DNA of 30,271 nt from a virus. Shown one piece after another: positions 620 through 27,596 of the stretch; position 1 is the first letter of the stretch; every line of letters begins with the position of its first letter. The notes below the pieces were generated by a model. It had not been told where the DNA came from. It worked only from the letters and a program-made list of their open reading frames with translations, and did not search any database. Both the position numbers and the translations under genes were made by a program. Location: IMG/VR virus record IMGVR_UViG_3300030085_001016, positions 1-30,271 of that record, one strand, 5' to 3'.

Positions 620-628
620 AATATATTG

Positions 629-657: not shown

Positions 658-666
658 TAGTACAAA

Positions 667-711
667 TAAAAAAAGACAGATTGGGTGAGTGAGAGAAACC
701 CAATCTGTCTT
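667..711 (-). terminator. Rho-independent terminator after the AAA+ ATPase gene
   Basis: A near-perfect inverted repeat pairs 673-686 with 698-711 (AAGACAGATTGGG and its complement, 14 bp). On the minus strand it is followed directly by a run of T residues (about 666-674). This is the strongest intrinsic terminator in the early region and separates the AAA+ unit from the SufT-uvsW unit. Confidence 0.9.
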
Positions 712-716
712 AAAAT

Positions 717-740
717 AACTAGACCTGGGAAGGTCTAGTT
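717..740 (-). terminator. Second hairpin of a tandem terminator
   Basis: A 10-bp perfect stem (AACTAGACCT at 717-726 with AGGTCTAGTT at 731-740) and a four-base loop lie between the AAA+ stop codon and the main terminator. It is followed on the minus strand by only a short T-rich stretch (ATTTT), so it is either a weaker tandem terminator or an RNA 3'-end stabiliser. Confidence 0.6.
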
Positions 741-753
741 AACTGTTTAAGCC

Positions 754-1764
754 TTATGCCGCTCTTTTCATACAAGTGGTCTCAGCTAAACTCTTCCATC
801 TATCGCCAGTCTTAGACATGTTTCTAAGGTCTGCAATCTTTTGAGCCATTCTCAAAGAAACTTCTCTCAATTTCTTTTGATTAGCAACCATGAAGTCAAT
901 AATTTCAACTTCCTGCTCCTTAGTAAGACCTTTAGTATCGAATAGACCACCGTCTCTAGCAATCTGTTTGATTCTCAAAATCTTATCTCTAGCAGTATCC
1001 ATTGTCAAATCAAGATAGTGACACCTTGAAAGAATTGCTTCCAAGTGATCCTTGATTTTAGTTGCTCTAACATTGTCAAACTTTAAGTTTGTAATGAAGA
1101 TAACTGAACCTTTGAATTCAAAAGTATCAGGAACACCTTCCCTTCTCAAGAAGTGTGAGTCAGAGTTCCAAGAAATCTTCCTCTTCTTACCACTATCAAG
1201 AGCCGCCTTAAGAATATTAAGAGCATCCTCATTGAAAAGAATACTATCACAATCGTCCAAGATTACGATATTCTTAGGATCAGAATATTTGTAAAGTGTT
1301 GAATAAAGACCAATCGCAGACATTGTACCTTTTACGAAAGTATGTCTAAGAGGCTTATCAGCCATCATATCAAAGATTGAGTCCTTTTCTAGAACTTGCT
1401 CAACACCAAATGTTTTACCAACACCTGGAGGGCCTGAAACTACCATACCTCTAACAACACCATCGATTGTTGCCTCGGTCATTTCATCTAGGATTTTAAA
1501 TCTTTCTGCAATCCTGTTCATTGCTTGTTCATCAGTTTCATTTACTGATTCAACAGTACCTTCTGAAACTACAACGTTTTCGGGATTGTCAAGTTTAACC
1601 CTGATTTTAGGGTTCTTGAATTTGCTCTTTTGAGCATTGACAGTAATAAACCAACTACCGTCTTTAGCTTGTTTCAACTCTGAAACAACTGGAAAAGTAC
1701 CTTTTACTTTTTCGTTTCTATAAGTACCTTTTTTGATTTGTGCTACGAACTGATTCTCACTCAT
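754..1764 (-). CDS. AAA+ ATPase conserved in marine T4-like phages
   Basis: This 336-residue protein carries a Walker A motif GPPGVGKT (about residues 111-118), Walker B VILDDCD (167-173), a sensor-1-like IFITN (222-226) and a candidate arginine finger in LSRCH (R247). That is a single AAA+ module behind a roughly 80-residue N-terminal region. The start at 1764 (MSENQF) is preferred over an upstream in-frame ATG because AAAGGAG sits seven bases before it. I recognise the protein as a conserved ATPase of marine T4-like phages whose substrate I do not know. It is not the CobS homologue common in cyanophages. The gene is a single-gene unit with its own TTGACA promoter and tandem terminators, so it is probably expressed early. 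Confidence 0.85.
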   Translation of the reverse strand: MSENQFVAQIKKGTYRNEKVKGTFPVVSELKQAKDGSWFITVNAQKSKFKNPKIRVKLDNPENVVVSEGTVESVNETDEQAMNRIAERFKILDEMTEATIDGVVRGMVVSGPPGVGKTFGVEQVLEKDSIFDMMADKPLRHTFVKGTMSAIGLYSTLYKYSDPKNIVILDDCDSILFNEDALNILKAALDSGKKRKISWNSDSHFLRREGVPDTFEFKGSVIFITNLKFDNVRATKIKDHLEAILSRCHYLDLTMDTARDKILRIKQIARDGGLFDTKGLTKEQEVEIIDFMVANQKKLREVSLRMAQKIADLRNMSKTGDRWKSLAETTCMKRAA

Positions 1765-1806
1765 GTTCTCACTCCTTTGTTCTGTTTTAATTATCATTAT
1801 GTTTAT

Positions 1807-1834
1807 ACTATAACACGATTCGTGATATTGTCAA
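1807..1834 (-). promoter_or_regulatory. Early-type sigma70-like promoter with palindrome in spacer (AAA+ gene)
   Basis: On the minus strand TTGACA (1834-1829) is separated by 16 bases from TATAGT (1812-1807). The spacer holds a perfect palindrome CACGA-T-TCGTG (1814-1824), which could be a repressor or activator site. It precedes the AAA+ start at 1764 by a short leader. Confidence 0.7.
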
Positions 1835-1845
1835 GTTTTTGACCA

Positions 1846-2106
1846 TTACCACCTTTTTTCTATTTCCTCCAAATACGCCATATTTCGGTTGTATTCATCA
1901 CGTATTACAACATATTTTTCCCAACTTGCATAATTGTGACTTTCAGGACCATGCATATTATTACGAATCTCTGCACTTCCTTTTGCGAGACCTTCGCCAA
2001 AAGGCCACCATTCTACAATCTCTTTTGTATCTTCACGATACGTTACAAAAATAGGGTACCCTGCATCTAGGGCACCTTCAAGAGTCTTAGTCTTTGCTAG
2101 GTTCAT
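1846..2106 (-). CDS. Hypothetical protein, 86 aa
   Basis: I do not recognise this protein. It is small, charged and rich in Trp and Tyr (ends EEIEKRW), with no signal peptide or membrane segment. The first half (about residues 15-40, YPIFVTYREDTKEIVEWWPF) could form a small beta sheet. The start codon is preceded by GAGG with good spacing, and the first 20 bases overlap the end of the 49-residue ORF upstream. Together with the next two genes it forms a short early operon driven from the promoter at 2691-2718. It is probably a small host-takeover or accessory protein by position (inference only). Confidence 0.7.
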   Translation of the reverse strand: MNLAKTKTLEGALDAGYPIFVTYREDTKEIVEWWPFGEGLAKGSAEIRNNMHGPESHNYASWEKYVVIRDEYNRNMAYLEEIEKRW

Positions 2107-2236
2107 TACTTACTACCTCTTCAATTATTACTTCTTTTTTATCTACTTTGGCACCTGAAAAGAAAGCCATTGCGTCTTCAAGTCTACTACAAATAGCCAA
2201 TACTTTCCCGCTTATCTTTTCTTTTACCACGTACAT
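2087..2236 (-). CDS. Hypothetical protein, 49 aa
   Basis: This ORF starts MYVVKEKISGKVLAICSRLE and ends in an acidic tail with VIIEEVVSNEPSKD. I do not recognise a family. The ATG at 2236 lies four bases after the stop codon of the LPD29-like gene, which suggests translational coupling; the longer in-frame extension up to 2281 would run back into that gene and is not used here. The 3' end overlaps the following 86-residue gene by 20 bases. Packing in the operon is the main support for it being real. Confidence 0.6.
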   Translation of the reverse strand: MYVVKEKISGKVLAICSRLEDAMAFFSGAKVDKKEVIIEEVVSNEPSKD

Positions 2237-2240
2237 TTGA

Positions 2241-2660
2241 TTAAGCCGCCTTAAGAACGTAAGGCTTGTCCCACTTACCAACGTTGATACTTACATAAAA
2301 AGCAGTATCAAAATAATCTGTCATTGCATCAGAGTTATCATACCAAGCACGACCACCATCAGCTTTAGCAGGAGCAGTATGACAAATTGTTTTAATGTCA
2401 TTAAATAGTTGCTCATGCTTACCATAAAAGTGAGTATGATAATGATTGATTTGAGCATATCCGTCGAACTTCTGAACTCGACCTGAATACTTATCGGTCA
2501 TATCCATTGATCCATCAAAGAAGTCAATAACACCTTCCATCAAAGAAACACGAACACCATTATAATGGTCACGTGTTACTGAAAACTTAATGTTCTTACC
2601 GAACTTTTCTTTAAGTGATTTACGAATTTCTTTAACTTCGTTTGTTGAAATATAAGCCAT
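2241..2660 (-). CDS. LPD29-domain-like phage protein, 139 aa
   Basis: The N-terminus (MAYISTNEVKEIRKSLKEKF, then KFSVTRDHYNGVRVSLMEG) resembles the large polyvalent protein-associated domain LPD29, which occurs in phage and mobile-element proteins and has no settled biochemical role. The middle part is rich in Asp, Gly and Tyr (DFFDGSMDMTDKYSG), followed by NHYHTHFYGKH. The protein is about the length of a stand-alone domain. AGAGAGG precedes the start and a TTGACA promoter lies at 2691-2718. It heads a three-gene operon with the two small ORFs downstream. The domain call is from memory of the consensus. Confidence 0.7.
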   Translation of the reverse strand: MAYISTNEVKEIRKSLKEKFGKNIKFSVTRDHYNGVRVSLMEGVIDFFDGSMDMTDKYSGRVQKFDGYAQINHYHTHFYGKHEQLFNDIKTICHTAPAKADGGRAWYDNSDAMTDYFDTAFYVSINVGKWDKPYVLKAA

Positions 2661-2690
2661 TTGTACCTCTCTCTTTTTGATTACTTAATT

Positions 2691-2718
2691 AATATAGCAT
2701 GATTCTATATTTTGTCAA
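2691..2718 (-). promoter_or_regulatory. Early-type sigma70-like promoter for the LPD29-like operon
   Basis: On the minus strand TTGACA (2718-2713) and TATATT (2696-2691) are 16 bases apart. The spacer contains ATAG...CTAT (2694-2697 with 2705-2708), a short inverted repeat that overlaps the -10. The promoter resembles those at 1807-1834 and 3390-3418, all of which have CTTGACA. Confidence 0.75.
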
Positions 2719-2733
2719 GTTTTGAGGTCTAAA

Positions 2734-3030
2734 TTATCCTATATTTTTCGGAATTTTTACTAGTCGGTTTATAGCAGTTCCTTTTCTATTAGTATATTCT
2801 ACTCTTAAATGAGTAGTACCTTTTGGAGCAGATCCTGCCACAGATTTGAATATCTTCTTTAATCCTAAACCTTCTTTTTCTTCGGAAAATTCTTTATCGT
2901 CTGTAATTTTTATTTTGATTTTTCTTGTCATAGAGTTGTCCCTAGCCCAGAGACAATCACATTCATCGATTGTTTCACCACATATTGGACAGTCTTCCCA
3001 ATCTGGTAAATCATCGGGCCAGGGACTCAT
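2734..3030 (-). CDS. Small protein with N-terminal Cys cluster (putative zinc-binding), 98 aa
   Basis: The N-terminal 30 residues hold WEDCPICGETIDECDC, with four cysteines (C14, C17, C24, C26) spaced like a small zinc-binding knuckle. A basic, beta-rich remainder follows (RKIKIKITDDKEF, later THLRVEYTNRKG and RLVKIPKNIG). There is no clear ribosome binding site before the start at 3030. An internal ATG at 2931 (MTRKIKIKI) is preceded by AGGG at good spacing, so a 65-residue form lacking the Cys cluster is possible. The long form is annotated because the Cys motif looks selected. I do not recognise the family. Confidence 0.65.
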   Translation of the reverse strand: MSPWPDDLPDWEDCPICGETIDECDCLWARDNSMTRKIKIKITDDKEFSEEKEGLGLKKIFKSVAGSAPKGTTHLRVEYTNRKGTAINRLVKIPKNIG

Positions 3031-3044
3031 TTATAAGTTAATGT

Positions 3045-3365
3045 TTACCCAAACACCTTTTCGTTAGCTAAAGCCCTGTATCCAGCGGCTACAACCCTTC
3101 TTAAAGGAGCGCCCATCTTATAGATAGTCTTACCGTTTTTGCTCTTATTTGCATACACGGCGTATCCTTTCATTCTTAATGCGGATACTGTCGCTCTTGG
3201 ATTAGCAATAGAAAATCTGTGTTTCATTGCTGATTCAGTTAAAGCCTCTCCATCTTTAAGAGCATTAACTAATCTGTCTTGTTTTGACGTTTTTGATGTT
3301 TTCATCGTTTCTCCTTTTTCTGTTGAAAAAGATTTTTTTGTACTCAAGTTTAACCAATTAAACAT
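3045..3365 (-). CDS. Putative winged-helix DNA-binding protein with two possible starts
   Basis: The core (KQDRLVNALKDGEALTESAM, then PRATVSALRMKGYAVYANK and a KTIYKMG wing) reads as a small winged-helix/HTH fold, with a basic C-terminal tail. The ORF has two in-frame ATGs, each with a strong ribosome binding site: 3365 (AAAGGAGG, then TACT) and 3305 (AAAGGAG, then AAACG). They give 106- and 86-residue forms. The extra N-terminal 20 residues (MFNWLNLSTKK...) are hydrophobic then basic. The gene is directly downstream of the promoter at 3390-3418. A role as an early phage transcription factor is inference. Confidence 0.75.
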   Translation of the reverse strand: MFNWLNLSTKKSFSTEKGETMKTSKTSKQDRLVNALKDGEALTESAMKHRFSIANPRATVSALRMKGYAVYANKSKNGKTIYKMGAPLRRVVAAGYRALANEKVFG

Positions 3366-3389
3366 AGTACCTCCTTTTCTTTAAGGTAT

Positions 3390-3418
3390 AGAATATCATA
3401 AATCACCGGTTGTGTCAA
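3390..3418 (-). promoter_or_regulatory. Early-type sigma70-like promoter for the winged-helix gene
   Basis: On the minus strand TTGACA (3418-3413) is followed after 17 bases by TATTCT (3395-3390). The start codon and its AGGAGG site lie 25 bases further downstream. It shares the CTTGACA core with the promoters at 1807-1834 and 2691-2718. Confidence 0.75.
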
Positions 3419-3460
3419 GTATTAATTTTCCTTGAAATCCCTGGATTTTATAAATACAAT

Positions 3461-3580
3461 ATGGAGAAAATAATCAAAGATATAGACCAATTCTCATTTG
3501 TCATAGGAATGGCCTATGGTATATTAACAGTTGTGTGTATTGTACTATTTGTTTGGATAGCAGTTAAGGTGTATCGTTAA
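3461..3580 (+). CDS. 39-aa single-pass membrane microprotein on the plus strand
   Basis: This is the only credible plus-strand gene. The ORF reads MEKIIKDIDQFSFVIGMAYG, continues ILTVVCIVLFVWIAVKVYR and then stops. It has a charged N-terminus, one strong hydrophobic segment (about residues 13-35) and a basic end (K36, R39), which is the layout of a small inner-membrane protein. It fills a gap left by the minus-strand genes and its last 17 bases overlap the 3' end of the methyltransferase gene tail to tail. TATAAATAC (3450-3458), which resembles a phage late promoter, ends just two bases before the ATG, and no clear ribosome binding site is present, so expression would have to be leaderless or from further upstream. 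Function unknown. Confidence 0.5.
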   Translation: MEKIIKDIDQFSFVIGMAYGILTVVCIVLFVWIAVKVYR

Positions 3581-4208
3581 ACTCAGGGACTTTAACGTTA
3601 GAACGCTTGTTTAACGCATAAAACACATGATTTTCTTTGTTATCACCTGAACTTAACTCATATGAATCGTATTGAACTACTTCAAATCCTGAACGAATCA
3701 TAAACAATCTATAGTTGTCTGGATGTAAAGTAGCATAATATTTGTGTTGATTCGCAGAATGAGGTACTTCAATATATGCCCAACCGCCTACTTTCATGAT
3801 TCTATTCATTTCAAGTAGTGTATAAAATGGCATATGAGAAAACTGAAACGATTGACGCATCCAAACTAGATGAAAATAGTTATCCATCATCTTGCTATAG
3901 TTGTAATCCATAAGATGTACATTTAAATCTTGTGCTTTACAATGATCCCATTCTTCTTTACTGATAGTAACTCCTTGAACATTCTCATATCCAAGTTCCT
4001 TAAATTTAGTCATTGCATATCCTTGACCACAGCCAAGGTCTATAATATTTGCATCTTTTTTGTCTGGAAAAGAGTTTTCAACAAACGGTGGAAGTTGTCT
4101 ATCAATAATACGTTTATCTAAATCTGTATCTGTAAAGTGTCCAACTTCGTTCTGCATTGCATGTTTGAAGTTATTAATTCTAATCCATTCTTCTGTAAAA
4201 TCAGTCAT
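3564..4208 (-). CDS. SAM-dependent class I methyltransferase
   Basis: The 214-residue protein has the class I motif I NIIDLGCGQGYAM (about residues 54-66), an acidic position after the second strand region (GVTISKEEWDHC, about 79-90), a post-II DYNYSKMMDNYFHLVWMRQS segment (101-120) and the MKVGGWAYIEVPHS strand typical of Methyltransf_11/23-like enzymes. No target-recognition domain or NPPY/DPPY motif is visible, so a DNA adenine or cytosine methylase is unlikely. Small-molecule, glycan or protein targets are possible. The start codon directly abuts the stop of the 84-residue unknown, extending the nrdA-nrdB chain. Substrate unknown. Confidence 0.82.
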   Translation of the reverse strand: MTDFTEEWIRINNFKHAMQNEVGHFTDTDLDKRIIDRQLPPFVENSFPDKKDANIIDLGCGQGYAMTKFKELGYENVQGVTISKEEWDHCKAQDLNVHLMDYNYSKMMDNYFHLVWMRQSFQFSHMPFYTLLEMNRIMKVGGWAYIEVPHSANQHKYYATLHPDNYRLFMIRSGFEVVQYDSYELSSGDNKENHVFYALNKRSNVKVPEFNDTP

Positions 4209-4463
4209 TTAGTCCTCTTTGTTAATAAACAATTCCACTACTGGATGCTTGTTTACAAATTTCATTACTGTTTCATAGCTATCACAGTTACCTTTATCTA
4301 CGTTATGATTGCCAATATCCATTGCAATCTTTTGTAGTTTTAAGATAACTGCTTGGTCTACTTGTTTTGGTATTAAACAATAATGTGCTTCGCCTTTTGG
4401 TTCTATTGCTACAAAGTCTTGAACTTCATAATCAACATTACCTAATTCTTTTACATCAATCAT
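4209..4463 (-). CDS. Hypothetical protein, 84 aa, coupled to nrdB
   Basis: I do not recognise this protein. It starts MIDVKELGNVDYEVQDFVAI and contains CLIPKQVDQAVILKLQKIAM, a likely amphipathic helix. There is no membrane segment, and its two cysteines (in HYCLIP and GNCDS) do not form a glutaredoxin-like CxxC. Its start overlaps the nrdB stop by four bases (ATGA) and its stop abuts the methyltransferase start, so it is translated with the ribonucleotide reductase genes. A link to dNTP supply is suggested only by that position. Confidence 0.75.
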   Translation of the reverse strand: MIDVKELGNVDYEVQDFVAIEPKGEAHYCLIPKQVDQAVILKLQKIAMDIGNHNVDKGNCDSYETVMKFVNKHPVVELFINKED

Positions 4464-5590
4464 AGAGACAAGCCGCCAAATGTTTTCTTATCAACATCTT
4501 GCTTAACACCACCAATTACATAAGAACTGATTTCAGTTTCTTGTGGAGCAACTTGTACTTCTGCACCTGCAATCCACTTTTGTGTCCAAGGTAGTGGGTT
4601 TGCTTGTGATGTTTTGTATGGGCATTTTAGTCCAACGGCTGTCATACGTTTACAACAAATCCACTCAATATAATCATCAAGTAGTTGTGCATTCAAACCA
4701 ATCATTGAACCATCTTTAAACAAATATTGTGCCCATTGCTTTTCTTGTTCTACTGCATCAACAAACATTTTAATACATTCTTTTTCTGTTTCTTTTGCAA
4801 TCTTAACGTAATCTTTATCATCTTTTGGAAGTAGTTTTAGAAGTGTCTGAGTACTTGCTAAGTGTAAGTTTTCATCACGTGCAATAAGTTTAATAATCTT
4901 TGCATTGCCTTCCATTTTCTTTAATTCTGCGAATGCCCATGAACAAGCAAATGAAACGTAGAAACGAACACCTTCTAAAATATTAACACTCATTAAAGTT
5001 TTATAAAGAGACTTTTTAATTTCGTATTTTGAAATCTTTACCTTTTTACCATTTACTGTATGTGTGCCTTCTCCTAAGAGATTATAGTAACTTGTCATTT
5101 CAATTAGTTCATCATAGTTTTTAGAAATATCATCTGCACAATCTACGATTTCACCAATCTCCATCATTTCATCAAATACTTTTGATGGGTCTGCATAAAC
5201 ATTTCTAATAATATGTGTATAAGAACGTGAGTGAATTGTTTCACTAAATGTCCAAGTCTGAATCCATGCTTCTAATTCTGGAATAGAAACAATAGGAGAA
5301 AATGCTTCAACTGGAGCACGACCTTGTACTGAGTCTAAAAGAATCTGACGTTTTAGATTTGATGTAAAAATATGTCTTTCATGTTCTGTAAGATTTTTAA
5401 AATCATTTGCATCTTTTAATACATCAACTTCTTCTGGTCGCCAAAAGAAACCCAACTGCTTATCAGTTAGTTTATCAAATTGTTTATACTTTAGCATATC
5501 GTATCGTTGAATACTTACACCACCCGACGGATCTAGAAAAGCCAATGCTTTTGTATGGTCCGCTTTATTACTTGAATTAAATACTGACAT
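4460..5590 (-). CDS. nrdB: Ribonucleotide reductase class Ia, small (R2) subunit
   Basis: This 376-residue protein aligns by eye almost end to end with Escherichia coli NrdB. The di-iron ligands are visible: D86 (LLDSVQG), E117 and H120 (SETIHSRSY), E206 (LEGVRFYVSF), E240 and H243 (ARDENLHL). The radical tyrosine is Y124. The ligands are offset by two from E. coli numbering. R2 houses the tyrosyl radical that is passed to NrdA to reduce ribonucleotides to deoxyribonucleotides in the cytoplasm. The C-terminal tail (EVDKK-like, ending GGLSL) is the expected R1-docking region. It follows nrdA by 12 bases with AAAGGAAG before the start, and is coupled to the next gene by ATGA. Confidence 0.97.
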   Translation of the reverse strand: MSVFNSSNKADHTKALAFLDPSGGVSIQRYDMLKYKQFDKLTDKQLGFFWRPEEVDVLKDANDFKNLTEHERHIFTSNLKRQILLDSVQGRAPVEAFSPIVSIPELEAWIQTWTFSETIHSRSYTHIIRNVYADPSKVFDEMMEIGEIVDCADDISKNYDELIEMTSYYNLLGEGTHTVNGKKVKISKYEIKKSLYKTLMSVNILEGVRFYVSFACSWAFAELKKMEGNAKIIKLIARDENLHLASTQTLLKLLPKDDKDYVKIAKETEKECIKMFVDAVEQEKQWAQYLFKDGSMIGLNAQLLDDYIEWICCKRMTAVGLKCPYKTSQANPLPWTQKWIAGAEVQVAPQETEISSYVIGGVKQDVDKKTFGGLSL

Positions 5591-5602
5591 GTTTATCTTC
5601 CT

Positions 5603-7912
5603 TTATATCACACACGACTCGCAGTAATCATCGTATTCTGCATCTGTCTCAAAATCTTCTCTCGTTTTAGTTTCTTCATCATCTTTATGTACATCGATTT
5701 CACCCTGTCCATCGAATGTGTTAAAGTAGTATAATTGCTTTCCACCGTATTTGTAAAACATAATAAGATGTTGAAGCATTACACTCATTGGAATCTTTTC
5801 ATCTTCAAAGAATACCGGATTGTAGCTTGTATTTACAGATATACCTTGGTCGATATATTTCTGCAAAACAGCCATAATCTTTAAGTAGCCTTCAGGTGAT
5901 TGTTGATCCCATAGTAACTCATATTTATTCTTTAATTTATGAATCCCGGGTACAACTTGCTTTAAAACGCCATGTTTTGACTGCTTCACACTGACATAGC
6001 TACGTGGCGGTTCTATACCGTTGGTTGAATTTGATATCTGTGCTGATGTTTCAGCAGGCATAAGAGCCATCAAAGTAGAGTTACGAATACCATGTTTCTT
6101 TAGATTTTCACGTAACTTCTTCCAACCTTTACGTTCCTTATATTTTACTAGTTCATCTACATCTGATTTTCTAGTATCTATTGGAACAATACCATTACCA
6201 TATCTTGTTTCGTTAGACTTAGGACATGCACCTTTTTCTTGTGCTAACTCATTTGAAGATTTAATCAAATAAAAACTCCAAGCCTCTGCCCATTCATCTA
6301 CAAGTTTTAAATCTGGGTCTGAATAATTTGTATCATTTTTAGCTAACCAATAGGCAAAATTAATAATACCAATACCAAGAGGTCTCCTGTTATTAGTTGA
6401 TAGTTCTGCCGCAAGTACAGGATATCTTTGATAGTCTAAAAGAGCATCAAGTCCACGTACTGCTAAATCACATGGTTTTTCAAATTCTTCTGGAGAACGA
6501 ATATTTCCCCAATTAATAGCACTTAATGTACAAAGAGAAATTTCACCTTCTTCATCATGCAAACTAGTTAGTGGTTTTGTTGGTAGATTAATTTCACAAC
6601 AAAGATTAGATTGCTTGATAGGTGCAACTTCTGGTAAAAATGAACCATGGTCATTTGCATGGTCAACATTCATTAAGTAAATTCTTCCTGTGTTTTTTCT
6701 TTCATTCATAAATGAAGAAAACAATTCGATTGCAGGAATAGTTTTCTTGCGTAATCTTGTATTACGTTCTGCACGTTCATAAATTTCTCTAAACTTATCT
6801 TGGTCTTGAAAGAATGAATCATATAGACCAGGAACATCACTTGGTGAGAACAAAGTAATATCTTCACCAGCAATTAATCTTTCATACATTAGTTTATTAA
6901 ACTGTACACCATAATCCATATGACGTACACGATTATCTTCTGTACCTTTGTTATTCTTTAGAACAAGTAAGTCTTCAACTTCATAATGCCAAATAGGATA
7001 ATACAAAGTTGCCGCGCCACCACGAACACCACCTTGTGAACATGATTTTACACTTGCTTGAAATAATTTATAAAAAGGAATAACTCCTGTATGACTGGCA
7101 TCACCGTTTCGAATTGGTGAATTGATAGCACGTATACTACCAGCACCAATACCGATACCTGCTTTTTGAGAAACATACTTGACAACTGAACTTGAGGTAG
7201 CATTGATAGAATCAAGAGAGTCATCAGTTTCAATCAAAACGCAACTTGAAAATTGTCTTTGTGGTGTTCTTACGCCTGCCATAACAGGAGTTGGTAAAGA
7301 AATATCAAAGTTACTAATTGCGTCATAGTAATCTTTAACATACTTCAATCTTGTTTCTTTTGGATATGTACTAAACAATGTAGCAGAAATTAAAGCATAT
7401 GCAATTTGTGGTGTTTCAAAATGTTTACCAGTAACACGATTTTGTACTAAGTACTTACCACGAAACTGTTCCATACCTACATATGCAATATTGAAATCTC
7501 TATCATGTTTAATAAAATTGTTAATTTCGTCCCATTCATCTTTAGTATAGTCTTCTAACAATGAAGGATCATAGAATCCGTTCTTGACGTTTGCTTCTAC
7601 AACTTTAAGGATATGCCAAGGTTCAAACTCATTGTATACCATTTTTCTAAGATGATAATTAACAAGATTTCCTGCAACCCATTGATAGTTTGGTGTTTCT
7701 TCTGAAATTAAATCAGAAGCCGCCTTAATCAATGTTTCTTGAATTTCTTCACTAGTGATACCATCGTAAAATTGTATGTGAGACTTTAGTTCGACTTCAC
7801 TAGCACTAACGCCTGCGATATCTTGACACGCAAACATTACTACTTTGTGCATCTTTTCCAAGTCTAACGGTTCGCTTATACCGTCTCTTTTTACTACTTG
7901 AATTTCGCTCAT
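5603..7912 (-). CDS. nrdA: Ribonucleotide reductase class Ia, large (R1) subunit
   Basis: At 769 residues this is close to E. coli NrdA (761). An N-terminal ATP-cone begins VVKRDGISEPLDLEKM. Catalytic residues are all present: C224 (FSSCVLIE) and C461 (SLCTLSA) as the redox pair, N436, C438 and E440 in QSNLCCEI, the radical-transfer tyrosines Y728-Y729 (QLYYFNT), and a C-terminal shuttle pair C764 and C767 (YCESCVI). The protein reduces NDPs and is partnered by NrdB just downstream. A GGAAG site precedes the ATG. No intein or split is seen. The 58-base gap before it carries no obvious promoter, so it is probably co-transcribed with uvsY. Confidence 0.97.
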   Translation of the reverse strand: MSEIQVVKRDGISEPLDLEKMHKVVMFACQDIAGVSASEVELKSHIQFYDGITSEEIQETLIKAASDLISEETPNYQWVAGNLVNYHLRKMVYNEFEPWHILKVVEANVKNGFYDPSLLEDYTKDEWDEINNFIKHDRDFNIAYVGMEQFRGKYLVQNRVTGKHFETPQIAYALISATLFSTYPKETRLKYVKDYYDAISNFDISLPTPVMAGVRTPQRQFSSCVLIETDDSLDSINATSSSVVKYVSQKAGIGIGAGSIRAINSPIRNGDASHTGVIPFYKLFQASVKSCSQGGVRGGAATLYYPIWHYEVEDLLVLKNNKGTEDNRVRHMDYGVQFNKLMYERLIAGEDITLFSPSDVPGLYDSFFQDQDKFREIYERAERNTRLRKKTIPAIELFSSFMNERKNTGRIYLMNVDHANDHGSFLPEVAPIKQSNLCCEINLPTKPLTSLHDEEGEISLCTLSAINWGNIRSPEEFEKPCDLAVRGLDALLDYQRYPVLAAELSTNNRRPLGIGIINFAYWLAKNDTNYSDPDLKLVDEWAEAWSFYLIKSSNELAQEKGACPKSNETRYGNGIVPIDTRKSDVDELVKYKERKGWKKLRENLKKHGIRNSTLMALMPAETSAQISNSTNGIEPPRSYVSVKQSKHGVLKQVVPGIHKLKNKYELLWDQQSPEGYLKIMAVLQKYIDQGISVNTSYNPVFFEDEKIPMSVMLQHLIMFYKYGGKQLYYFNTFDGQGEIDVHKDDEETKTREDFETDAEYDDYCESCVI

Positions 7913-7970
7913 AATAATTCTTCCGTCCTCTCTTTACAATGGTCTATTATTTACTTCCATTGAGCCATTG

Positions 7971-8438
7971 TTAATGTCTGTTGTTTATTTCCGAATCTTC
8001 CATTCCCGCCACTCTTAACTTAATAATATTAGTTAATTGGAAGTGTTTGATTTCAAATCCCTTTGTTATACCTAAAAACTGATTTCTAGTATAAGCAACT
8101 TGATTTATAAGTTCTGATATTGCGACAACTTCTTGTTCACCATCAGCATATTTTTCAGCATCCCTACTACTAAGTGCTTTGTTATAGTTTTCAAGATACT
8201 TTCTCAAATATTCACTTCTTTTCTTTCTTAGTTGAATATTTAGATGCTCTAATATTGCCTCTAGTTCTTGTAATTGAGAGAAACGTAGTTCTACATAAGC
8301 TGGAAGTTGTGTGGAGTTCTTTTCTACATTGCCGTGAATACGTACTTCTTTTCTTGCTTCAAGCAATTCATTACTGTAGTGTTCAATACAATCAGGTATT
8401 TTGCCCCAATCTTTTACAACTTCATTATACCAATTCAT
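7971..8438 (-). CDS. uvsY: UvsY-like recombination mediator
   Basis: The protein (155 residues from MNWYNEVVKDWGKIPDCIEH) matches the UvsY of marine T4-like phages as I remember it: a basic central helix region (QLQELEAILEHLNIQLRKKR), a YLENYNKALSSRDAEKYADG segment and a C-terminal helix (NIIKLRVAGMED). UvsY loads UvsX onto gp32-coated single-stranded DNA. T4 UvsY is 137 residues. The ATG at 8438 is preferred over an upstream TTG at 8450, which lies inside the previous gene. It starts two bases after the stop of the 76-residue gene. Its location two genes below uvsX fits this role. Confidence 0.87.
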   Translation of the reverse strand: MNWYNEVVKDWGKIPDCIEHYSNELLEARKEVRIHGNVEKNSTQLPAYVELRFSQLQELEAILEHLNIQLRKKRSEYLRKYLENYNKALSSRDAEKYADGEQEVVAISELINQVAYTRNQFLGITKGFEIKHFQLTNIIKLRVAGMEDSEINNRH

Positions 8439-8440
8439 GT

Positions 8441-8671
8441 TTATTCCCAATCATCCTCTTCTTCTTCAAAATCGTCTGCATAGTAGCGGTCATATGCCGC
8501 TTCTAAAATTTTATCACCATTTACAAGTTCATGTACATCTTCTTTTAATGCACCAACATCGTCTGCCGTTCTAATAAATATTTCTGCGACATCTAATTTC
8601 TCTTTTGCAGGAACATATGCTTTGATTTTCTCCCACATTTCGAATACTGTTTCAATATCTACAGAAGTCAT
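8441..8671 (-). CDS. Acidic hypothetical protein, 76 aa, between uvsX-group genes
   Basis: I do not recognise a family. The protein is highly acidic, with a C-terminal run DDFEEEEDDWE, and is otherwise helical (VDIETVFEMWEKIKAYVPAK; DVAEIFIRTADDVGALKEDV). The start abuts the stop of the PTPS/QueD-like gene (TAA then ATG) and the stop lies two bases before uvsY. An acidic tail in a recombination operon could serve protein binding or DNA mimicry, but that is a guess. Strict packing between known genes supports it being real. Confidence 0.78.
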   Translation of the reverse strand: MTSVDIETVFEMWEKIKAYVPAKEKLDVAEIFIRTADDVGALKEDVHELVNGDKILEAAYDRYYADDFEEEEDDWE

Positions 8672-9118
8672 TTATGCCTCATAAATGGCTGAGTTAGCAC
8701 CGTGTTCTGCACATTCTACACGAACACATCGGCAACGATTATCTGTCATTTGTTTTACTAATTCGTCCGCCTTTCGCCAGGCATGTTCAGCAAACTTTTC
8801 GACCCCCACACCTTCAAGTTGTACAATACTTGCAAGACCTTGAGTCTGTAGCAGTAACAAATGATCCTTCTTGGGATCATTTACATCAATTACAACTTTG
8901 TGGTCAAACGTTTCTTCAAGCCATGCTTTCAGAGGTTTGAGACCACCGAAATCAACTACCCAATTACGTTCATCTAATTCATCACAACCAAATGTGAATT
9001 TAAAAGATAAACTATATCCATGTAGTAATTTACAATGTGAGTGTGCTAAAGGTTGTCTAAACACTGCACTTAGTCCAATGTTATGCCCATAGCACTTGGT
9101 CGAAAAATATTTAGCCAT
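8672..9118 (-). CDS. 6-pyruvoyl-tetrahydropterin synthase / QueD-like protein (HGY variant)
   Basis: The 148-residue protein resembles the PTPS/QueD superfamily: C29-KLL-H33-G-Y35 aligns with the catalytic Cys and zinc-site CxxxHGH of E. coli QueD, FDHK (D72, H73) with the conserved Asp-His pair, NWVVDFGGLK with the family core, and the C-terminal AEHGANSA (E138) with the substrate-binding Glu region. The third-position His is Tyr and the first N-terminal zinc His (AAH in QueD) is not in the usual place; H12, H26 or H28 may substitute. I recall the same HGY form in cyanophages and some bacteria, so it is a subfamily. The substrate could be a pterin or 7-deazaguanine precursor, but is uncertain. 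The start overlaps the uvsX stop (TAATG). Confidence 0.82.
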   Translation of the reverse strand: MAKYFSTKCYGHNIGLSAVFRQPLAHSHCKLLHGYSLSFKFTFGCDELDERNWVVDFGGLKPLKAWLEETFDHKVVIDVNDPKKDHLLLLQTQGLASIVQLEGVGVEKFAEHAWRKADELVKQMTDNRCRCVRVECAEHGANSAIYEA

Positions 9119-10209
9119 TATGCTTCCTCATTTACTTCTATGTTTTCTTGTTCTGGTGCTTCTAATTCTTCTGATTCATCATCAAAATCTTTATTGCCCC
9201 ATTCTTTCATAACTATATCAAGTTTATCACCAGTCCAGTTTTTTCTGAACTCTGACATAATTTCACCTGATGCAGTAGTGTAAGCAAGTTTGTTTCCAGA
9301 CTTAACAAGAATTCCTTTTGCTTCAAAGAAATCAACAAGACCACTATATGGATCCATGCCTGTTTCATATGGAATCTTAACTTGTACACCTTCAAAAGGT
9401 TTTGCGTAACGAGTTTTCATAACTTTACAAGCCGCTCTGATACCACGTACTTCTGAAATCTTGTTACCTGCCTCGTCTTCTTTTAGTTTTAGTTTTTTCA
9501 TTGCAACAACAATACTTGATGCATAGATAAATCCTTGACCACCTGAAATCTTATCATCTGGGTCAAACATATCTTGTGATGCGTATGTATGATTTGTTGC
9601 AACCATACCTACGTTGTAATCACCAAACATATTTACACAATTTCTAACAAGAGCCGCGAGTGCTTTAGGCTTACGACCCATATCACCTTTCATATCACCC
9701 TTGTTAAACTGGTCAACATCAGTTGGTGTTAACATCATACCAAGTGAATCAAGAACAAAAAGAACTTTTGGTCTATCTTGTTCATCTGCATCGGCATATT
9801 CTGCCTTGTAGTCTTTCATAAATTCACTGATAATCTTTGCAACTTCATCAATCATTGCAACATTTAATTTTAAAAGTTTATCTTCATCTGTGCTTACATC
9901 TAATGCATGTAACCACTTTTCATCTAATGCGTTTTCTGAATCGATTAGAACAACAAAGATACCTTGTTCTTGTGCATGTCTAACAATATTACCTGCGGCT
10001 ATAAATGATTTACCTGCACCACTTTCACCTGCTAGTACTGTTACCTTGCCTAGTGGAATACCTTTTTGAAAATCTCCACTGATTAATCTGTTTAGACAGT
10101 AATTACCTGTAGATACCCATGTATCTGGATCACGAAATCCTGCACTTACTCCAGGCACAGATTTCGTTATGCTTTTTCTAAATTTACTTACGTCAAATGC
10201 TCTTGGCAT
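9118..10209 (-). CDS. uvsX: UvsX RecA-like recombinase
   Basis: This 363-residue RecA-family protein has Walker A GESGAGKS (61-68), Walker B KVLFVLDSLG (148-157, D154), a MVATNHTYASQDMF segment equivalent to the RecA motif with the L2 region (ISGGQGFIYASS), and an acidic C-terminal tail (EELEAPEQENIEVNEEA). UvsX forms filaments on gp32-covered single-stranded DNA with UvsY and drives strand invasion in recombination-dependent replication. The start is preceded by AAGGAG. A GC-rich hairpin at 10229-10250 separates it from gp32, so the level of read-through from the gp32 promoter may be controlled there. Confidence 0.95.
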   Translation of the reverse strand: MPRAFDVSKFRKSITKSVPGVSAGFRDPDTWVSTGNYCLNRLISGDFQKGIPLGKVTVLAGESGAGKSFIAAGNIVRHAQEQGIFVVLIDSENALDEKWLHALDVSTDEDKLLKLNVAMIDEVAKIISEFMKDYKAEYADADEQDRPKVLFVLDSLGMMLTPTDVDQFNKGDMKGDMGRKPKALAALVRNCVNMFGDYNVGMVATNHTYASQDMFDPDDKISGGQGFIYASSIVVAMKKLKLKEDEAGNKISEVRGIRAACKVMKTRYAKPFEGVQVKIPYETGMDPYSGLVDFFEAKGILVKSGNKLAYTTASGEIMSEFRKNWTGDKLDIVMKEWGNKDFDDESEELEAPEQENIEVNEEA

Positions 10210-10228
10210 ATTTCACTCCTTCATAATG

Positions 10229-10250
10229 AGAGGGAGGTTGCCCTCCCTCT
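10229..10250 (-). terminator. GC-rich hairpin between gp32 and uvsX (putative terminator or attenuator)
   Basis: A perfect 9-bp stem (AGAGGGAGG at 10229-10237 with CCTCCCTCT at 10242-10250) has a four-base loop. No T-run follows on the minus strand (CATTATGAAGGAG comes next, the uvsX ribosome binding site), so it may act as a partial terminator, an RNA processing site or a 3'-end stabiliser of gp32 mRNA. Confidence 0.5.
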
Positions 10251-10265
10251 AGTTGTTTTAATGAT

Positions 10266-11276
10266 TTAGTCAGATTTACGACTTCTAATCATTGCCAGGA
10301 TATCAGCGGCATCATTTGAACCACCAGTTGCTGGTGTTGATGTTGCCTCTGCCATTGCTGGTTGAGGTGTTGCTTCTGCCTTTGGAGCAGGAGCCGGTGT
10401 CTCAACCGGAGCAGATTTAGTTTCAGCTGGAGCAGAAGGTTGTGCAGTTGCCTGCGTAGTTTCTGTCTTAGCCGTTGTATTACCTAAATCCAAACCATAA
10501 GGTTTGTAGTATGCACCGAACTTCTCTGGATCATATAGATTTCCATCAACTGATGCTTCAAACATTTCCATGATGATACGTAGTTCTTCATCATTAGGAC
10601 GTTTTGGCATGAAGTCGTTTAAGTCATACAACCCATGAGTTTCAATAGCTTTACGTTCATCTTCATTTAGAGAACGTTCTTTACGTGCCCAATTTGAAGT
10701 TGAGTAGTCAGCATATTGACCTTTTTGAGTTTTTGTTAAACGGAAATCAGTTCCTGAATCATAGTCAGTTGGAAGATTTTCCATATCTGGATCCATTAGA
10801 GCCGACTTTAGAAGTTTAAAGATTTGAGGACCAATCACAAAACGTCTGATTGGATTCTCAGGAGATTCCTCGTTCATTGGATCTTGAACAACGAAACCTT
10901 GGAAGATGTAAGAACGCTTCTTCCAATACTTTCGTCCAATGTCTTCCATTGCTGGATCTTTGAACCAAGGACGAATCTCTGCATGTACTGGACATGTATC
11001 ACCCCACATTTCAACGCACGGAACTTGTACAGTTACTGGCTTTGATGTATCCCCACCTTTTACGCCAGGGAATGTCATTTTAATGATTTGACGTTCACGC
11101 CAGAAAAATGTATTTGAGTTGTCCGCATCTGGAAGAAAACGAATTACAGCCGTCGAGTCTGTATCCATGTTCCAGAAAGGATAGATTGCGTCTACCCCAC
11201 GATTTTGATTGGCATTGTCTGCCGATTTTGAGTCTTGTGCAAGAAGTTTTGCACGGATTTCTGCTAAAGTAGCCAT
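10266..11276 (-). CDS. gp32: gp32 single-stranded DNA-binding protein
   Basis: The 336-residue protein has the gp32 core: FLPDADNSNTFFWRERQIIK (48-67), a zinc-site stretch VQVPCVEMWGDTCPVHAEIR with C87, C95 and H98, and YWKKRSYIFQGFVVQDP (about 116-132). It ends with a Pro/Ala/Thr-rich linker (about 265-315) and a short C-terminal segment. gp32 coats single-stranded DNA and organises replication, recombination and repair. The zinc site differs from T4 (H-C-C-C), as remembered in cyanophage gp32. AGGAG precedes the start. A perfect TATAAT promoter and a repeat-rich leader lie upstream, and a hairpin lies downstream. Confidence 0.93.
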   Translation of the reverse strand: MATLAEIRAKLLAQDSKSADNANQNRGVDAIYPFWNMDTDSTAVIRFLPDADNSNTFFWRERQIIKMTFPGVKGGDTSKPVTVQVPCVEMWGDTCPVHAEIRPWFKDPAMEDIGRKYWKKRSYIFQGFVVQDPMNEESPENPIRRFVIGPQIFKLLKSALMDPDMENLPTDYDSGTDFRLTKTQKGQYADYSTSNWARKERSLNEDERKAIETHGLYDLNDFMPKRPNDEELRIIMEMFEASVDGNLYDPEKFGAYYKPYGLDLGNTTAKTETTQATAQPSAPAETKSAPVETPAPAPKAEATPQPAMAEATSTPATGGSNDAADILAMIRSRKSD

Positions 11277-14498: not shown

Positions 14499-15272
14499 TT
14501 ACTTTTTTATACCGACTTTTCCGTCTTCCTTAATTTCTGCATCTGCTAATCTTTTAACTCTATCACGCCAACCTACTTCACCTATTGCACCTGTAAGTGT
14601 AACTCTGATAGTATCTCCTGCATCTGGGTCAACACGTGTAATACCGTGTACTGAATTCTTTTGTATTAGAACTAATCTATTTGGTTTAGGACTTACAAAA
14701 GTTCCTACACCTTTATCAATGATTGATTTATATTTTTCTTTTTGTTGAAACATTTCCATTGGACTTCTTAGTTCTTTATAGCTATCATAATGTTTTGTAC
14801 CTTCCATTAATTCAATCCATTGAGAATATTCTGGTACACTGCCCATAGGAACAATCAATAATGTAGAGTCCCAATTAATATGCCACTCTTTATGAAGATA
14901 GTATGTGTATGTTGTAAAACCTAAATCACTGTGCCATGGATTTTTTGAGTTAACTGGATATGCATGACAACGCATTGCATAATCTTCGAATTTCCCACCT
15001 TCTACATAATCACCTATATGCTCATATTCATTTAAGAACTTATTAAAGTGTTCAAACCAAACATCACAATTATCACCATAAGGATATTTTCCTTGCCAAC
15101 GTTTTTGATTTTTATAATTTGCACCGTCTGTATAATGCCAAAACTTATCATCGCCTTGAGTTTGTTCCCACTCATCAACTTGTACTTGATTTAAAATCTT
15201 ATCTTGTGCTTCTTCTGGTAAGAAGTCATCAATGACTAAACATTCAGGTGTTCTCATTACAACATTATACAT
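14499..15272 (-). CDS. 2-oxoglutarate/Fe(II)-dependent oxygenase
   Basis: From the ATG at 15272 (MYNVVMRTPECLVIDDF) the 257-residue protein has the HxD iron motif PWHSDLGF (H114, D116), the distal histidine in KNSVHGITRVD (H209) and the 2-oxoglutarate-binding arginine in DTIRVTLTG (R223), within a double-stranded beta-helix layout like prolyl-hydroxylase-type phage oxygenases. The reaction would be hydroxylation of an unknown substrate with 2OG and O2. An upstream ATG at 15290 (MEKEK) is possible. The gene overlaps the end of the amidinotransferase by 8 bases and abuts gp17, so the three are one unit. A CATAAATA-like site at 15338-15345 may add late transcription (weak). Confidence 0.88.
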   Translation of the reverse strand: MYNVVMRTPECLVIDDFLPEEAQDKILNQVQVDEWEQTQGDDKFWHYTDGANYKNQKRWQGKYPYGDNCDVWFEHFNKFLNEYEHIGDYVEGGKFEDYAMRCHAYPVNSKNPWHSDLGFTTYTYYLHKEWHINWDSTLLIVPMGSVPEYSQWIELMEGTKHYDSYKELRSPMEMFQQKEKYKSIIDKGVGTFVSPKPNRLVLIQKNSVHGITRVDPDAGDTIRVTLTGAIGEVGWRDRVKRLADAEIKEDGKVGIKK

Positions 15273-16299
15273 AGCTTTCTCTTTCTCCATTTCTACTTAA
15301 GTCAAGTGTTACGCAATGTAATCCACTATCCCAGAAATATTTATGTCTGAAATCAAACGGTATCATTTCAACACCATATTGTTTCAATTCTTTTTCAATT
15401 CTTGCATCATATCCGTTTGTAATGACTGTATTTTCATCAATACTAACTACATTCAAATCGAATACTGTTTCATCAACATAACCTATCCAGTGAGATAACC
15501 ATTTTTCAACTTTATCTTTATAGAAATGTTGAATTCTTATTTCATGAAACCACTCAGGCAAATCCCATGGTGTTAGAATAATCTTATCCCAATGTTTTAG
15601 TTCTTCGGGAATATATTCTTCTTTCCATGTCATTAATAATCCTGGTTTGATAATTGCTAACATACCATCAGCATGACCGCATTCAGGTATTTCTATCCAT
15701 TTTGTTTCACAACCTATATTTCTTTTTACCCAATCTAACCCTGTTCTTGTTCCTCTTGCCCCAAAATCACGTCCAGCTGGATCATGATAAGGTCTTGAAT
15801 GAATTAAAGTATCACCGCACTTTATAATATTTGCGGCATGATACATTATCTGAGGTTCCATTGTTTCATAGTGTTGATACTGAGATTGCAATAAAGGTCT
15901 AGGCATTGCAATATAGTTTCTTCCTTCTTTATGTTTTTCTAACATTATATCTAAGAAGTAATCACTTTCAGTATATCTATTACAATCACCACCTATAGTA
16001 TTGATAATAGTATCTCCATAAACTATATGATGGTCACGAGGACATATTGCAGGATATGGAAATTCTGATTTCCATTGTCTTGTGCTTTCAGATTGCAAAG
16101 GTATATTCTTTGGTCTGTGAACTTTAACACTTGCTGATTTAAATACATCTGATAATTTTTGAAAATCTTGTTCTGTTTCTTCTAGTATCTTTGACATACT
16201 ATCAACAAATTGTGTATCATCGAATTGTTCTAAAGACTTAGTATCATAAGTGGAGCCAACAATAACCTCTGTTAGCTTATCCCATTCTGTCCATATCAT
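15265..16299 (-). CDS. Amidinotransferase (guanidino-group modifying enzyme superfamily)
   Basis: The 344-residue protein starts WTEWDKLTEVIVGS, a typical opening for glycine/inosamine amidinotransferases. It continues with CPRDHHIVYGDTII (about 86-99), the active-site His in PECGHADGMLAI (H209), and the catalytic Cys in SGLHCVTLDLSR (C329). These match the Asp/His/Cys layout of the family, which moves the amidino group of arginine to an amine acceptor through a Cys-amidino intermediate; deiminase or hydrolase members share the fold. The length fits a stand-alone enzyme. A variant late promoter (CATAAATA) lies between it and the terminator upstream. It is paired with the 2OG oxygenase. The acceptor substrate is unknown. 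Confidence 0.88.
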   Translation of the reverse strand: MIWTEWDKLTEVIVGSTYDTKSLEQFDDTQFVDSMSKILEETEQDFQKLSDVFKSASVKVHRPKNIPLQSESTRQWKSEFPYPAICPRDHHIVYGDTIINTIGGDCNRYTESDYFLDIMLEKHKEGRNYIAMPRPLLQSQYQHYETMEPQIMYHAANIIKCGDTLIHSRPYHDPAGRDFGARGTRTGLDWVKRNIGCETKWIEIPECGHADGMLAIIKPGLLMTWKEEYIPEELKHWDKIILTPWDLPEWFHEIRIQHFYKDKVEKWLSHWIGYVDETVFDLNVVSIDENTVITNGYDARIEKELKQYGVEMIPFDFRHKYFWDSGLHCVTLDLSRNGERESYV

Positions 16300-16330: not shown

Positions 16331-16338
16331 TATTTATG
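16331..16338 (-). promoter_or_regulatory. Variant late-type promoter CATAAATA (amidinotransferase unit)
   Basis: The minus strand reads GCATAAATAGTATT directly after the T-run of the terminator at 16342-16368 and 31 bases before the amidinotransferase ATG. Placement between a terminator and a new unit supports a promoter role. Confidence 0.6.
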
Positions 16339-16341
16339 CAC

Positions 16342-16368
16342 AAAAAAAGGGAGCCTAAACTCCCTTTT
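16342..16368 (-). terminator. Rho-independent terminator after the 96-aa late gene
   Basis: The stem AAAAGGGAG/CTCCCTTTT (16345-16353 with 16360-16368) has loop TTTAGG on the minus strand and is followed by seven T residues. It closes the unit of the 96-residue gene. Confidence 0.92.
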
Positions 16369-16395: not shown

Positions 16396-16686
16396 TTAGA
16401 TGTTTGGCCAAACTGTTGGTGTTGTAGCCGTATCAGTTATTGATCCATTGTCCTGTGTATCAACTACTGCTAAATCATTTACTGTTGAAAGACTTACATA
16501 ACCACGTGTTCCTGATGTAGAACCAAGTGAACCTCTATGTAGAGCACCTCTTGTTGGTAAGTCATCTGCGGAGTCTGTAATTGACCCAAAATCGGCTAAC
16601 TCTGCTAACCAAATTGAACGTCTAATTCTTACTCTTGGGCCTGCGCCTGCGTTATTCCAAGTTACGCCACGATATTTGTTTGCCAT
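16396..16686 (-). CDS. Small late protein, 96 aa (probable virion component)
   Basis: I do not recognise a family. The N-terminus is basic (MANKYRGVTWNNAGAGPRVRIRRS). The rest is Ser/Thr/Gly/Asp-rich and beta-like (GSITDSADDLPTRGALHRGS, LGSTSGTRGYVSLSTVNDLA), with a repeated GSITD (about 34-38 and 81-85). The gene has its own GATAAATA promoter (16715-16722) and its own terminator (16342-16368), an isolated single-gene unit typical of an abundant product. A decoration, fibre or other abundant virion protein is a plausible role, but nothing in the sequence proves it. Confidence 0.75.
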   Translation of the reverse strand: MANKYRGVTWNNAGAGPRVRIRRSIWLAELADFGSITDSADDLPTRGALHRGSLGSTSGTRGYVSLSTVNDLAVVDTQDNGSITDTATTPTVWPNI

Positions 16687-26173: not shown

Positions 26174-26493
26174 ATAATCCTCAAAAGAATGTTATACAGT
26201 ATTATCGTTACAGATAAACCGGCTATAACACTACACCAAAATCCTATCTTTGTAACTAGTAACCCAAATATAACAAAAAATACAAGGCTTGTCAAGACAA
26301 AATATGTAGTTTCAAAACTAAATTTTGCAAAAGTCTCTGCATCTATGCCTGAATACCACATAAAAATCATAGCAAGAAAGGCAGTGAAAGGTATACCCAT
26401 CAAAAGAGCCGCCATAGTAGCATTACGCAAAGCCATCATACTAACTGATGCTACTAATATTCCTGATATAAGTGCTTTTAAAAAGAATTCCAT
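26170..26493 (-). CDS. DUF3147-like small membrane protein, 107 aa
   Basis: The protein is almost entirely hydrophobic with about four predicted membrane segments (roughly 4-22, 26-47, 62-82, 84-105). The second and third flank a conserved-looking loop (MWYSGIDAETFAKFSFETTY). The pattern of an MALRNATMAALLMGIPFTAF segment, then TSLVFFVIFGLLV and a final GFWCSVIAGLSVTIILY segment resembles bacterial DUF3147 proteins as I remember them. It overlaps the end of the radical SAM gene by 16 bases and the gp1-like start by ATGA. GGAG lies 10 bases before the start. Function unknown. A holin role is not ruled out but four segments and location do not favour it. Confidence 0.7.
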   Translation of the reverse strand: MEFFLKALISGILVASVSMMALRNATMAALLMGIPFTAFLAMIFMWYSGIDAETFAKFSFETTYFVLTSLVFFVIFGLLVTKIGFWCSVIAGLSVTIILYNILLRII

Positions 26494-27596
26494 AAATCTA
26501 ACACTCCTAACTTTTCTATCATTGTATTTACTCTAATATCATTTTCTTTTTCTTTGTCTATAATTTGTTTTATCGTAAATGAATGATTTGTTTCTTGGTT
26601 TATAAAATCTAATAGATATGTTAATTGCTCTTGTCCGTCAAACTCTGATTTCAGTAAATGTGTTAGTTTTTCTTTTGTATCTTTATCTAAATTTTTTAAT
26701 GACATATGCTCTGGATAATCTAGTAAATCAAACACAGGCATTTTATTAAACTTTTGAAATGAATATTCTAATACATCTTTCATTAAATGAATATTAAAGA
26801 CGTTTACTACTGTATGCATACCCAACTTAACGTTATCAGTTTTATGCTCTATAAAATGATTTATGGTGTTCTCAATAGCATTCCATTTGTGTGGAGGTCT
26901 AAGTATTTCATTTGCTTCACCAATAGCATCAATACTGAATATAACTTCTACTTCTTTTAGTTTTGACCATGATTCAAATATCTCTTGTTTTGGTATTATA
27001 GTTCCATTAGTATTATAAAACAATCTGACATTCTCTGGATTATCTGATTTACTTACAATCTGTGTCAAAAAATCCGCATGTTTCTTATCTAATAAAGGCT
27101 CGCCGCCTACAAACTTAACAAAGTCTAATTTAGATAAATCAGTATCGTAATATTTTAAGTCAAATGAATCCACAGAAACATCAACTGACATTCCTGGGTT
27201 TTTTATTAATTTCCATTTACTACTGAAAGTATCGTTACACATTCTACATGATAAATTACAATGTGTAGATAAAGCAGTTTCTATATATCTTAATTCTGGT
27301 TTGTTTCCTATAAACTTATCATATTGTTTGAATTGTTGTCTAAAAGACTCTATACCATTGTCTTCTGCACGCCAACATTTATCACACATTGAAAGTTTTT
27401 CACCTTTCAACATCTTATCTCTTATGTCATTGAAAAATTTAGAATTGAATGCATGATGCAAACCGTCTGATAACTTAGGTGCTTCGTTAATATTTGGTAT
27501 ATTGTTTTCTTCTACAAAACAACAAGGAAGTACAGTGCCATCTACTTTAAGTCTGGCGTGAGACCATAACAATGAACATGCTGATGAATTATCCAA
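26478..27596 (-). CDS. Radical SAM protein with twitch-like auxiliary cluster motif
   Basis: The 372-residue protein has the CX3CX2C motif STHCNLSCRMCND (C113, C117, C120) that binds the SAM-coordinating 4Fe-4S cluster, then VKFVGGEPLLDKKH (the GGEP motif) and a VIFSIDAIGEANEILR strand. N-terminal cysteines C7, C25, C26, C71 and C74 (VLPCCF, CDKCW) fit a twitch/SPASM-type auxiliary cluster. The start is TTG: an in-frame TAA lies just before it, and the next candidate start would remove C7. AGGA is eight bases upstream. Such enzymes often modify peptides or small molecules; no peptide substrate is identified here. It overlaps the gp13-like gene and the DUF3147-like gene. Confidence 0.87.
   Translation of the reverse strand: MDNSSACSLLWSHARLKVDGTVLPCCFVEENNIPNINEAPKLSDGLHHAFNSKFFNDIRDKMLKGEKLSMCDKCWRAEDNGIESFRQQFKQYDKFIGNKPELRYIETALSTHCNLSCRMCNDTFSSKWKLIKNPGMSVDVSVDSFDLKYYDTDLSKLDFVKFVGGEPLLDKKHADFLTQIVSKSDNPENVRLFYNTNGTIIPKQEIFESWSKLKEVEVIFSIDAIGEANEILRPPHKWNAIENTINHFIEHKTDNVKLGMHTVVNVFNIHLMKDVLEYSFQKFNKMPVFDLLDYPEHMSLKNLDKDTKEKLTHLLKSEFDGQEQLTYLLDFINQETNHSFTIKQIIDKEKENDIRVNTMIEKLGVLDLWNSF

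Follow-up and report, generated by a model that had tools for sequence, protein, structure and literature searches.

A predicted pentein-fold protein with an altered catalytic triad and a 2OG-Fe(II) oxygenase form a two-gene module upstream of the terminase gene in uncultured phages

The window, i.e., the complete stretch of 30,271 nucleotides that was analyzed (IMG/VR record IMGVR_UViG_3300030085_001016), contains on its minus strand, in this order, an open reading frame of 96 amino acids, a terminator hairpin, GCATAAATA, and three tightly packed genes. The first gene, AmT (16299-15265), encodes an AGAT/StrB1-like protein of 344 aa with a predicted pentein fold, and the second, Oxy (15290-14499), encodes a 2OG-Fe(II) oxygenase of 263 aa as called. 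Directly downstream lies the gene for a gp17-like terminase large subunit of 519 aa (14498-12939, minus strand), which probably belongs to the same transcription unit. The ORFs called for AmT and Oxy share 26 nt. Because most homologues begin at Met7 of Oxy, the conserved start is probably at 15272, which results in a protein of 257 aa and an overlap of 8 nt. The stop codon TAA of Oxy (14501-14499) abuts the ATG of gp17. The original prediction had described both the overlap and the abutment on gp17, and ORF calls and a sequence check revealed that these, its coordinates, and its motifs (GHADG and GLHCVTLD in AmT, HxD...H in Oxy) were right. The order AmT-Oxy-gp17 is also present in about 20 other IMG/VR contigs, and dN/dS is 0.03-0.2 for both AmT and Oxy; together with the PDB matches of AmT described below, this argues that the gene pair is not due to chance. 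The 96-aa ORF upstream (16396-16686, minus strand) has no family match and varies in length and copy number among relatives, and it was regarded as a flank of the insertion site, outside of the module. The closest terminase among deposited phages is 54% identical and belongs to Pseudomonas jumbo phages, and the phage of the window is no known cyanophage. Elsewhere in the window a SPASM radical SAM gene (26478-27596, minus strand) overlaps the head-tail adaptor gene.

Co-occurrence as neighbors had been named as a check in the original prediction, and a co-occurrence analysis showed that the two genes are conserved neighbors. Among the relatives with at least 2 kb of upstream sequence at the gp17 site, 13 carry both genes, 32 carry neither, and none carries a single gene. 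The pair-less relatives include terminases that are 93-95% identical to that of the window, closer than several pair carriers, and, thus, the pair was gained or lost as a unit. Fifty-one Oxy loci were also inspected, five of which have at most 61 nt of upstream sequence and were left out of the judgement. AmT was found directly upstream, overlapping by 8-26 nt, at 41 of the 46 assessable loci. Because many contigs are near-duplicates, all of these counts overstate the independence of the cases. AmT is one gene away at one locus (L283, on the contig of L110), and it is missing at four (L288-L291). At these four loci, Oxy is 51% identical, has 1.5-4 kb of upstream sequence free of AmT, and lies between portal- and protease-like genes. 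Conversely, L020-L022 have an AmT that is 88% identical and no Oxy in the 32-kb contig. Taken together, AmT and Oxy form a real two-gene module, and, as expected from the original prediction, it lies outside of the T4 core.

The overlapping pair occurs in unrelated backgrounds, i.e., before gp17 and in a cluster with radical-SAM, ATP-grasp, and PP-loop genes (L029-L034, L042). In L102-L111 and L270 it is followed by a gene for a PLP aminotransferase, and this gene is missing from five of the six long contigs of the window clade. Related enzymes are found together also in other combinations. In L142-L155 another AmT lineage occurs with F22 and F23, and the neighborhood contains a different 2OG oxygenase and a class-III aminotransferase. 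AmT is accompanied by three AspH-like ORFs in L139-L141, and in L098 it has an AspH-like oxygenase as well as an aminotransferase for neighbors. As recognizable 2OG genes are few in the long window-clade contigs, the adjacency of AmT and an oxygenase seems unlikely to be a matter of chance. The phage clusters around AmT-Oxy in L030 (positions 1-11105), L034, and L270 encode ATP-grasp, QueC-like PP-loop, AMP-ligase, SDR, aminotransferase, and radical SAM proteins as well as several 2OG oxygenases.

A T4-type late promoter motif, CATAAATA (GCATAAATA), is located at 16331-16338 on the minus strand, with 39 nt from its first base to the ATG of AmT. It is preceded by a terminator hairpin (GGGAG...CTCCC, 16345-16368) that is conserved in position and ends the preceding gene. 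The motif NATAAATA has been reported as the late promoter motif of T4-like cyanophages (PMC2984593), and before the pair it is found at promoter distance and at a conserved position. The motif alone is not significant, with three matches to YATAAATA in the window versus seven expected by chance. What is significant is its position, which is conserved both upstream of the pair and, in the pair-less relatives, upstream of gp17. In the latter (L299-L305, L353) the hairpin, GCATAAATA, and a short leader directly precede gp17, while the window and L023/L025 have this arrangement in front of AmT instead; the leader of L353 closely resembles that of L023/L025. Thus, the pair lies between gp17 and the late promoter of gp17. 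The sharing of a late promoter by the pair and the terminase, which had been proposed before, is therefore supported by sequence comparison, and late co-expression of AmT, Oxy, and gp17 is predicted to follow from the promoter position. A pattern scan of the three genes on their strand revealed no terminator between them. A second copy of CATAAATA, at 15338-15345, was rejected as a promoter, since it encodes the conserved AmT residues His-Lys-Tyr.

For Oxy, the proposed HxD...H site was found to be intact. H120xD122, H215, and the 2OG-binding R229 are invariant in 16 homologues, and the HxD...H...R site holds also in a 27%-identical protein of S-CAM4. This motif is shared with 2OG-FeII_Oxy_3 (PF13640), which was matched by 15 of the 16 family members (best value 9.3e-6); the score of the window Oxy alone was below the gathering cut-off. 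The AF2 model of Oxy had a pLDDT of 33, and, thus, a double-stranded beta-helix fold is predicted from the sequence. One other assignment was rejected. The label "DNA endonuclease V" of PHROG 19810/274 is contradicted by the HxD...H...R motif and the PF13640 matches; it is probably a misannotation, as the oxygenase motif is present both in Oxy of the window and in the protein of S-CAM4. A weak PDB match to a DNA 6mA demethylase (E 0.027, 46 residues) was regarded as not significant. DNA hypermodification was also considered as a role, and evidence was found neither for nor against it.

AmT by itself had no match in Pfam or NCBIfam, and its relatives were recovered by a PDB sequence search and by profiles. 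PDB sequence matches were obtained with SxtG (2.9e-20) and StrB1 (1.7e-18), and also with HsvA and AGAT. An AF2 model was generated with a pLDDT of 86 and a pTM of 0.88, and the top seven Foldseek matches of this model were all amidinotransferases, the best being HsvA, AGAT, SxtG, and StrB1 (E 5e-25 to 5e-23). According to the model, AmT has a pentein (alpha/beta propeller) fold that is closest to AGAT/StrB1. With these four enzymes it has in common the fold, the Cys, the His, and two Asp of the active site, the length, and a C-terminal HC.T.D motif. The nucleophile Cys329 (AGAT Cys407) is present in 68 of 68 viral and 61 of 61 cellular sequences, and the catalytic His209 (AGAT His303) in 67 of the 68 viral sequences. 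Asp89 and Asp211, the equivalents of the guanidinium-cradling StrB1 residues Asp108 and Asp229, are retained in AmT, and all four residues are kept almost without exception across the viral homologues.

The third member of the triad is different. The catalytic triad of human AGAT includes Asp254 (PMC3684758), which is Asp179 in StrB1, and at this position the window AmT has His154; in gap-free profile alignments YHAAN of AmT stands opposite FDAAN/FDAAD of HsvA, StrB1, SxtG, and AGAT. Among 68 viral homologues that are distinct in the sense that identical sequences were removed, and whose lineages are not necessarily independent, position 154 is His in 61, Ser in three, Asp in two, and Trp and Ala in one each, while the 61 cellular homologues have Asp (59) or Glu (2). 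In all 61 His-type sequences Trp323, Asp324, Glu277, Phe280, Asp281, and Gly208 are invariant. Trp323-Asp324 precedes the nucleophile loop, and Glu277, Phe280, and Asp281 are borne by an insertion that distinguishes AmT from AGAT, StrB1, HsvA, and SxtG. No fewer than 60 of the 61 His-type viral sequences have a gap in place of the StrB1 loop N243-P-S-R246. We take this Arg246 loop (AGAT Arg322), by AGAT numbering, to be the anchor of the donor carboxylate; Arg is present in the Arg246 column in 44 of the 61 cellular homologues, so it is not universal there either. AmT had been called a family-typical amidinotransferase, and this description does not hold, since AmT lacks the Arg246 loop and has His154 in place of the triad Asp, an exchange found throughout its viral clade. 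The proposed Asp/His/Cys site was, thus, recovered with regard to His209 and Cys329, but the Asp is lost, which weakens the amidino-transfer part of the prediction. Because the triad acid and the donor-side loop are altered, amidino transfer by AmT and arginine as its donor are put forward here as hypotheses and not as something that the sequence itself tells.

Phylogenetic analysis revealed that the His-type sequences form one virus-only clade (support 97/90) separate from the cellular AGATs. A smaller viral clade of other (non-His) types adjoins it, and CP220 and the cellular AGATs are located elsewhere in the tree. A cellular AmT homologue above 30% identity was not found. None of the 50,697 deposited phage records contained the His type, and distant AmT relatives were found in 14-15 of them, while a scan of IMG/VR yielded at least 591 confirmed AmT relatives. 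The separate clade, the His at position 154, the six invariant residues, and the gapped loop would all fit the main rival explanation, namely that AmT is a repurposed pentein with a changed reaction, e.g., hydrolysis/deimination or the use of a non-arginine donor, and that Oxy belongs to the same pathway. A His type next to an Asp or Ser type (L114, L127, L128) points in the same direction, and NnhA, a pentein enzyme redirected to a non-guanidino substrate, offers a precedent (PMC11659421). Nevertheless, we consider repurposing possible but somewhat unlikely, as Cys329, His209, Asp89, and Asp211 are nearly always retained and an aminotransferase, expected for the synthesis of an amine acceptor, is present in some contexts.

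Most likely, AmT and Oxy catalyze two steps of a single pathway that is expressed late and serves small-molecule synthesis or decoration. A small molecule would be bound between Asp89 and Asp211 of AmT, and Cys329 would form a covalent adduct at its amidino or guanidino carbon; His209 would serve as acid/base, and the bound group would be passed to an amine. An amine acceptor is suggested by the recurring aminotransferase; in other phages the PLP aminotransferase encoded beside the pair would supply the amine, and in the phages of the window clade it would be made by the host. Oxy would hydroxylate the same scaffold with Fe(II) and 2-oxoglutarate, before or after the AmT step. The product would be made while virions assemble. 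It would be either a guanidino or amidino compound that has been hydroxylated, or a substituent attached to a component of the virion or of the host envelope. We infer that both enzymes may act in sequence on one substrate, and this is strengthened by the recurrence of the neighborhood of aminotransferase, 2OG oxygenase, and AmT. The uncultured marine phages that bear the pair probably make or decorate a nitrogen-rich molecule late in infection. That the pair is a mobile two-enzyme biosynthetic module between the terminase late promoter and ORF, transcribed late and working by this mechanism, has in our view an even chance of being correct.

The late promoter common to the pair and gp17 would also suit a modification of a virion protein or surface polymer instead of a free metabolite, as would the distant Oxy between portal- and protease-like genes (L288-L291), the Oxy relative of S-CAM4, whose gene has a tail fibre gene and a virion structural gene as neighbors, and other AmT genes in glycosyltransferase/nucleotide-sugar islands (L073, S-SCSM2R). 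However, the characterized enzymes of the AGAT, StrB1, HsvA, and SxtG type act on small molecules, and neighbors such as ATP-grasp, AMP-ligase, aminotransferase, and radical-SAM genes suit small-molecule or glycan biosynthesis equally, so that a virion or surface target is judged to be improbable. A still simpler alternative is that the genes are ordinary auxiliary metabolic genes, AmT yielding guanidinoacetate for a creatine-like metabolism, which has been suggested for ocean viruses, and Oxy being an unrelated neighbor. The creatine-pathway gene GAMT has indeed been reported to be virus-enriched in ocean viromes (PMC11360552), but GAMT was not identified among the Pfam-scanned neighbors, the altered triad speaks against a plain Arg:Gly transfer, and the presence or absence of the pair as a unit and the repeated overlap make an unrelated Oxy unlikely. 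This alternative is, thus, very improbable.

AGAT-like genes had already been noted in phages of Campylobacter (PMC2853527), and ocean viruses had been reported to carry a creatine-pathway gene (PMC11360552). In the Campylobacter phages (Firehammervirus, CP220/CPt10) this "glycine amidinotransferase" gene is part of a radical-SAM module, and the accessory cluster that contains it together with radical SAM genes is exchangeable (PMC2853527). In contrast to AmT, the CP220 protein has kept the canonical Asp, groups with the cellular AGATs, and has no annotated 2OG oxygenase beside it. Synechococcus phage S-SCSM2R encodes a glycine amidinotransferase followed by a directly overlapping 2OG-Fe(II) oxygenase gene; it differs in that the AmT is 27% identical, the oxygenase was missed by the Oxy-family profile, and the context is kdsA/kdsB and a glycosyltransferase, not gp17. 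T4-like cyanophages have a hyper-variable g15-g18 structural region with accessory metabolic genes (PMC2984593), and the window locus resembles it in having such genes among structural genes and NATAAATA late promoters. In the published literature searched, the His-type clade, its 2OG oxygenase operon, and the insertion at the terminase promoter were not found, and nothing specific was found on the AmT-Oxy pair or on a phage biosynthetic cluster of such make-up. A more far-reaching and rather doubtful possibility is that the virus-only His-type pentein clade catalyzes a reaction foreign to cellular amidinotransferases and, with the oxygenase and often a PLP aminotransferase and radical SAM, constitutes a late phage pathway family widespread in marine phages. 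If AmT and Oxy do form a late pathway, uncultured marine phages would bear modular natural-product-like pathways under late promoters, and a pentein lineage would exist with a catalytic triad unlike that of all 61 cellular homologues recovered. Since the module is present or absent at one defined site, closely related phages that have it and others that lack it form natural pairs. The altered active site poses a direct biochemical question, i.e., which reaction is catalyzed by a Cys-His-His pentein.

Several further observations were made around AmT genes. In L114, L127, and L128 the two paralogues (His-type and Asp/Ser type) are within about 5 kb of each other in a radical-SAM-rich region. 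The window-clade contig L068 contains genes for a TctC-like periplasmic binding protein and a TctA-like permease (4734-7336, read by eye). Just after them come another AmT paralogue and an ORF that shows an HxD...H-like pattern and has no Pfam match. Four consecutive ORFs with SPASM radical SAM Cys patterns (by eye) are located upstream of two AmT genes in G009 / L072 (6458-11297). In addition, a family of ORFs with a CPFA motif often precedes AmT (L022:5042-5997, L069:7203-8139, L140:4559-5011). The L140 member had a match to DUF6875 below the cut-off (0.0019), and in L022 and L069 the CPFA ORF is followed by a short ORF, which in L022 weakly resembles the C-terminus of arginyl-tRNA-protein transferase.
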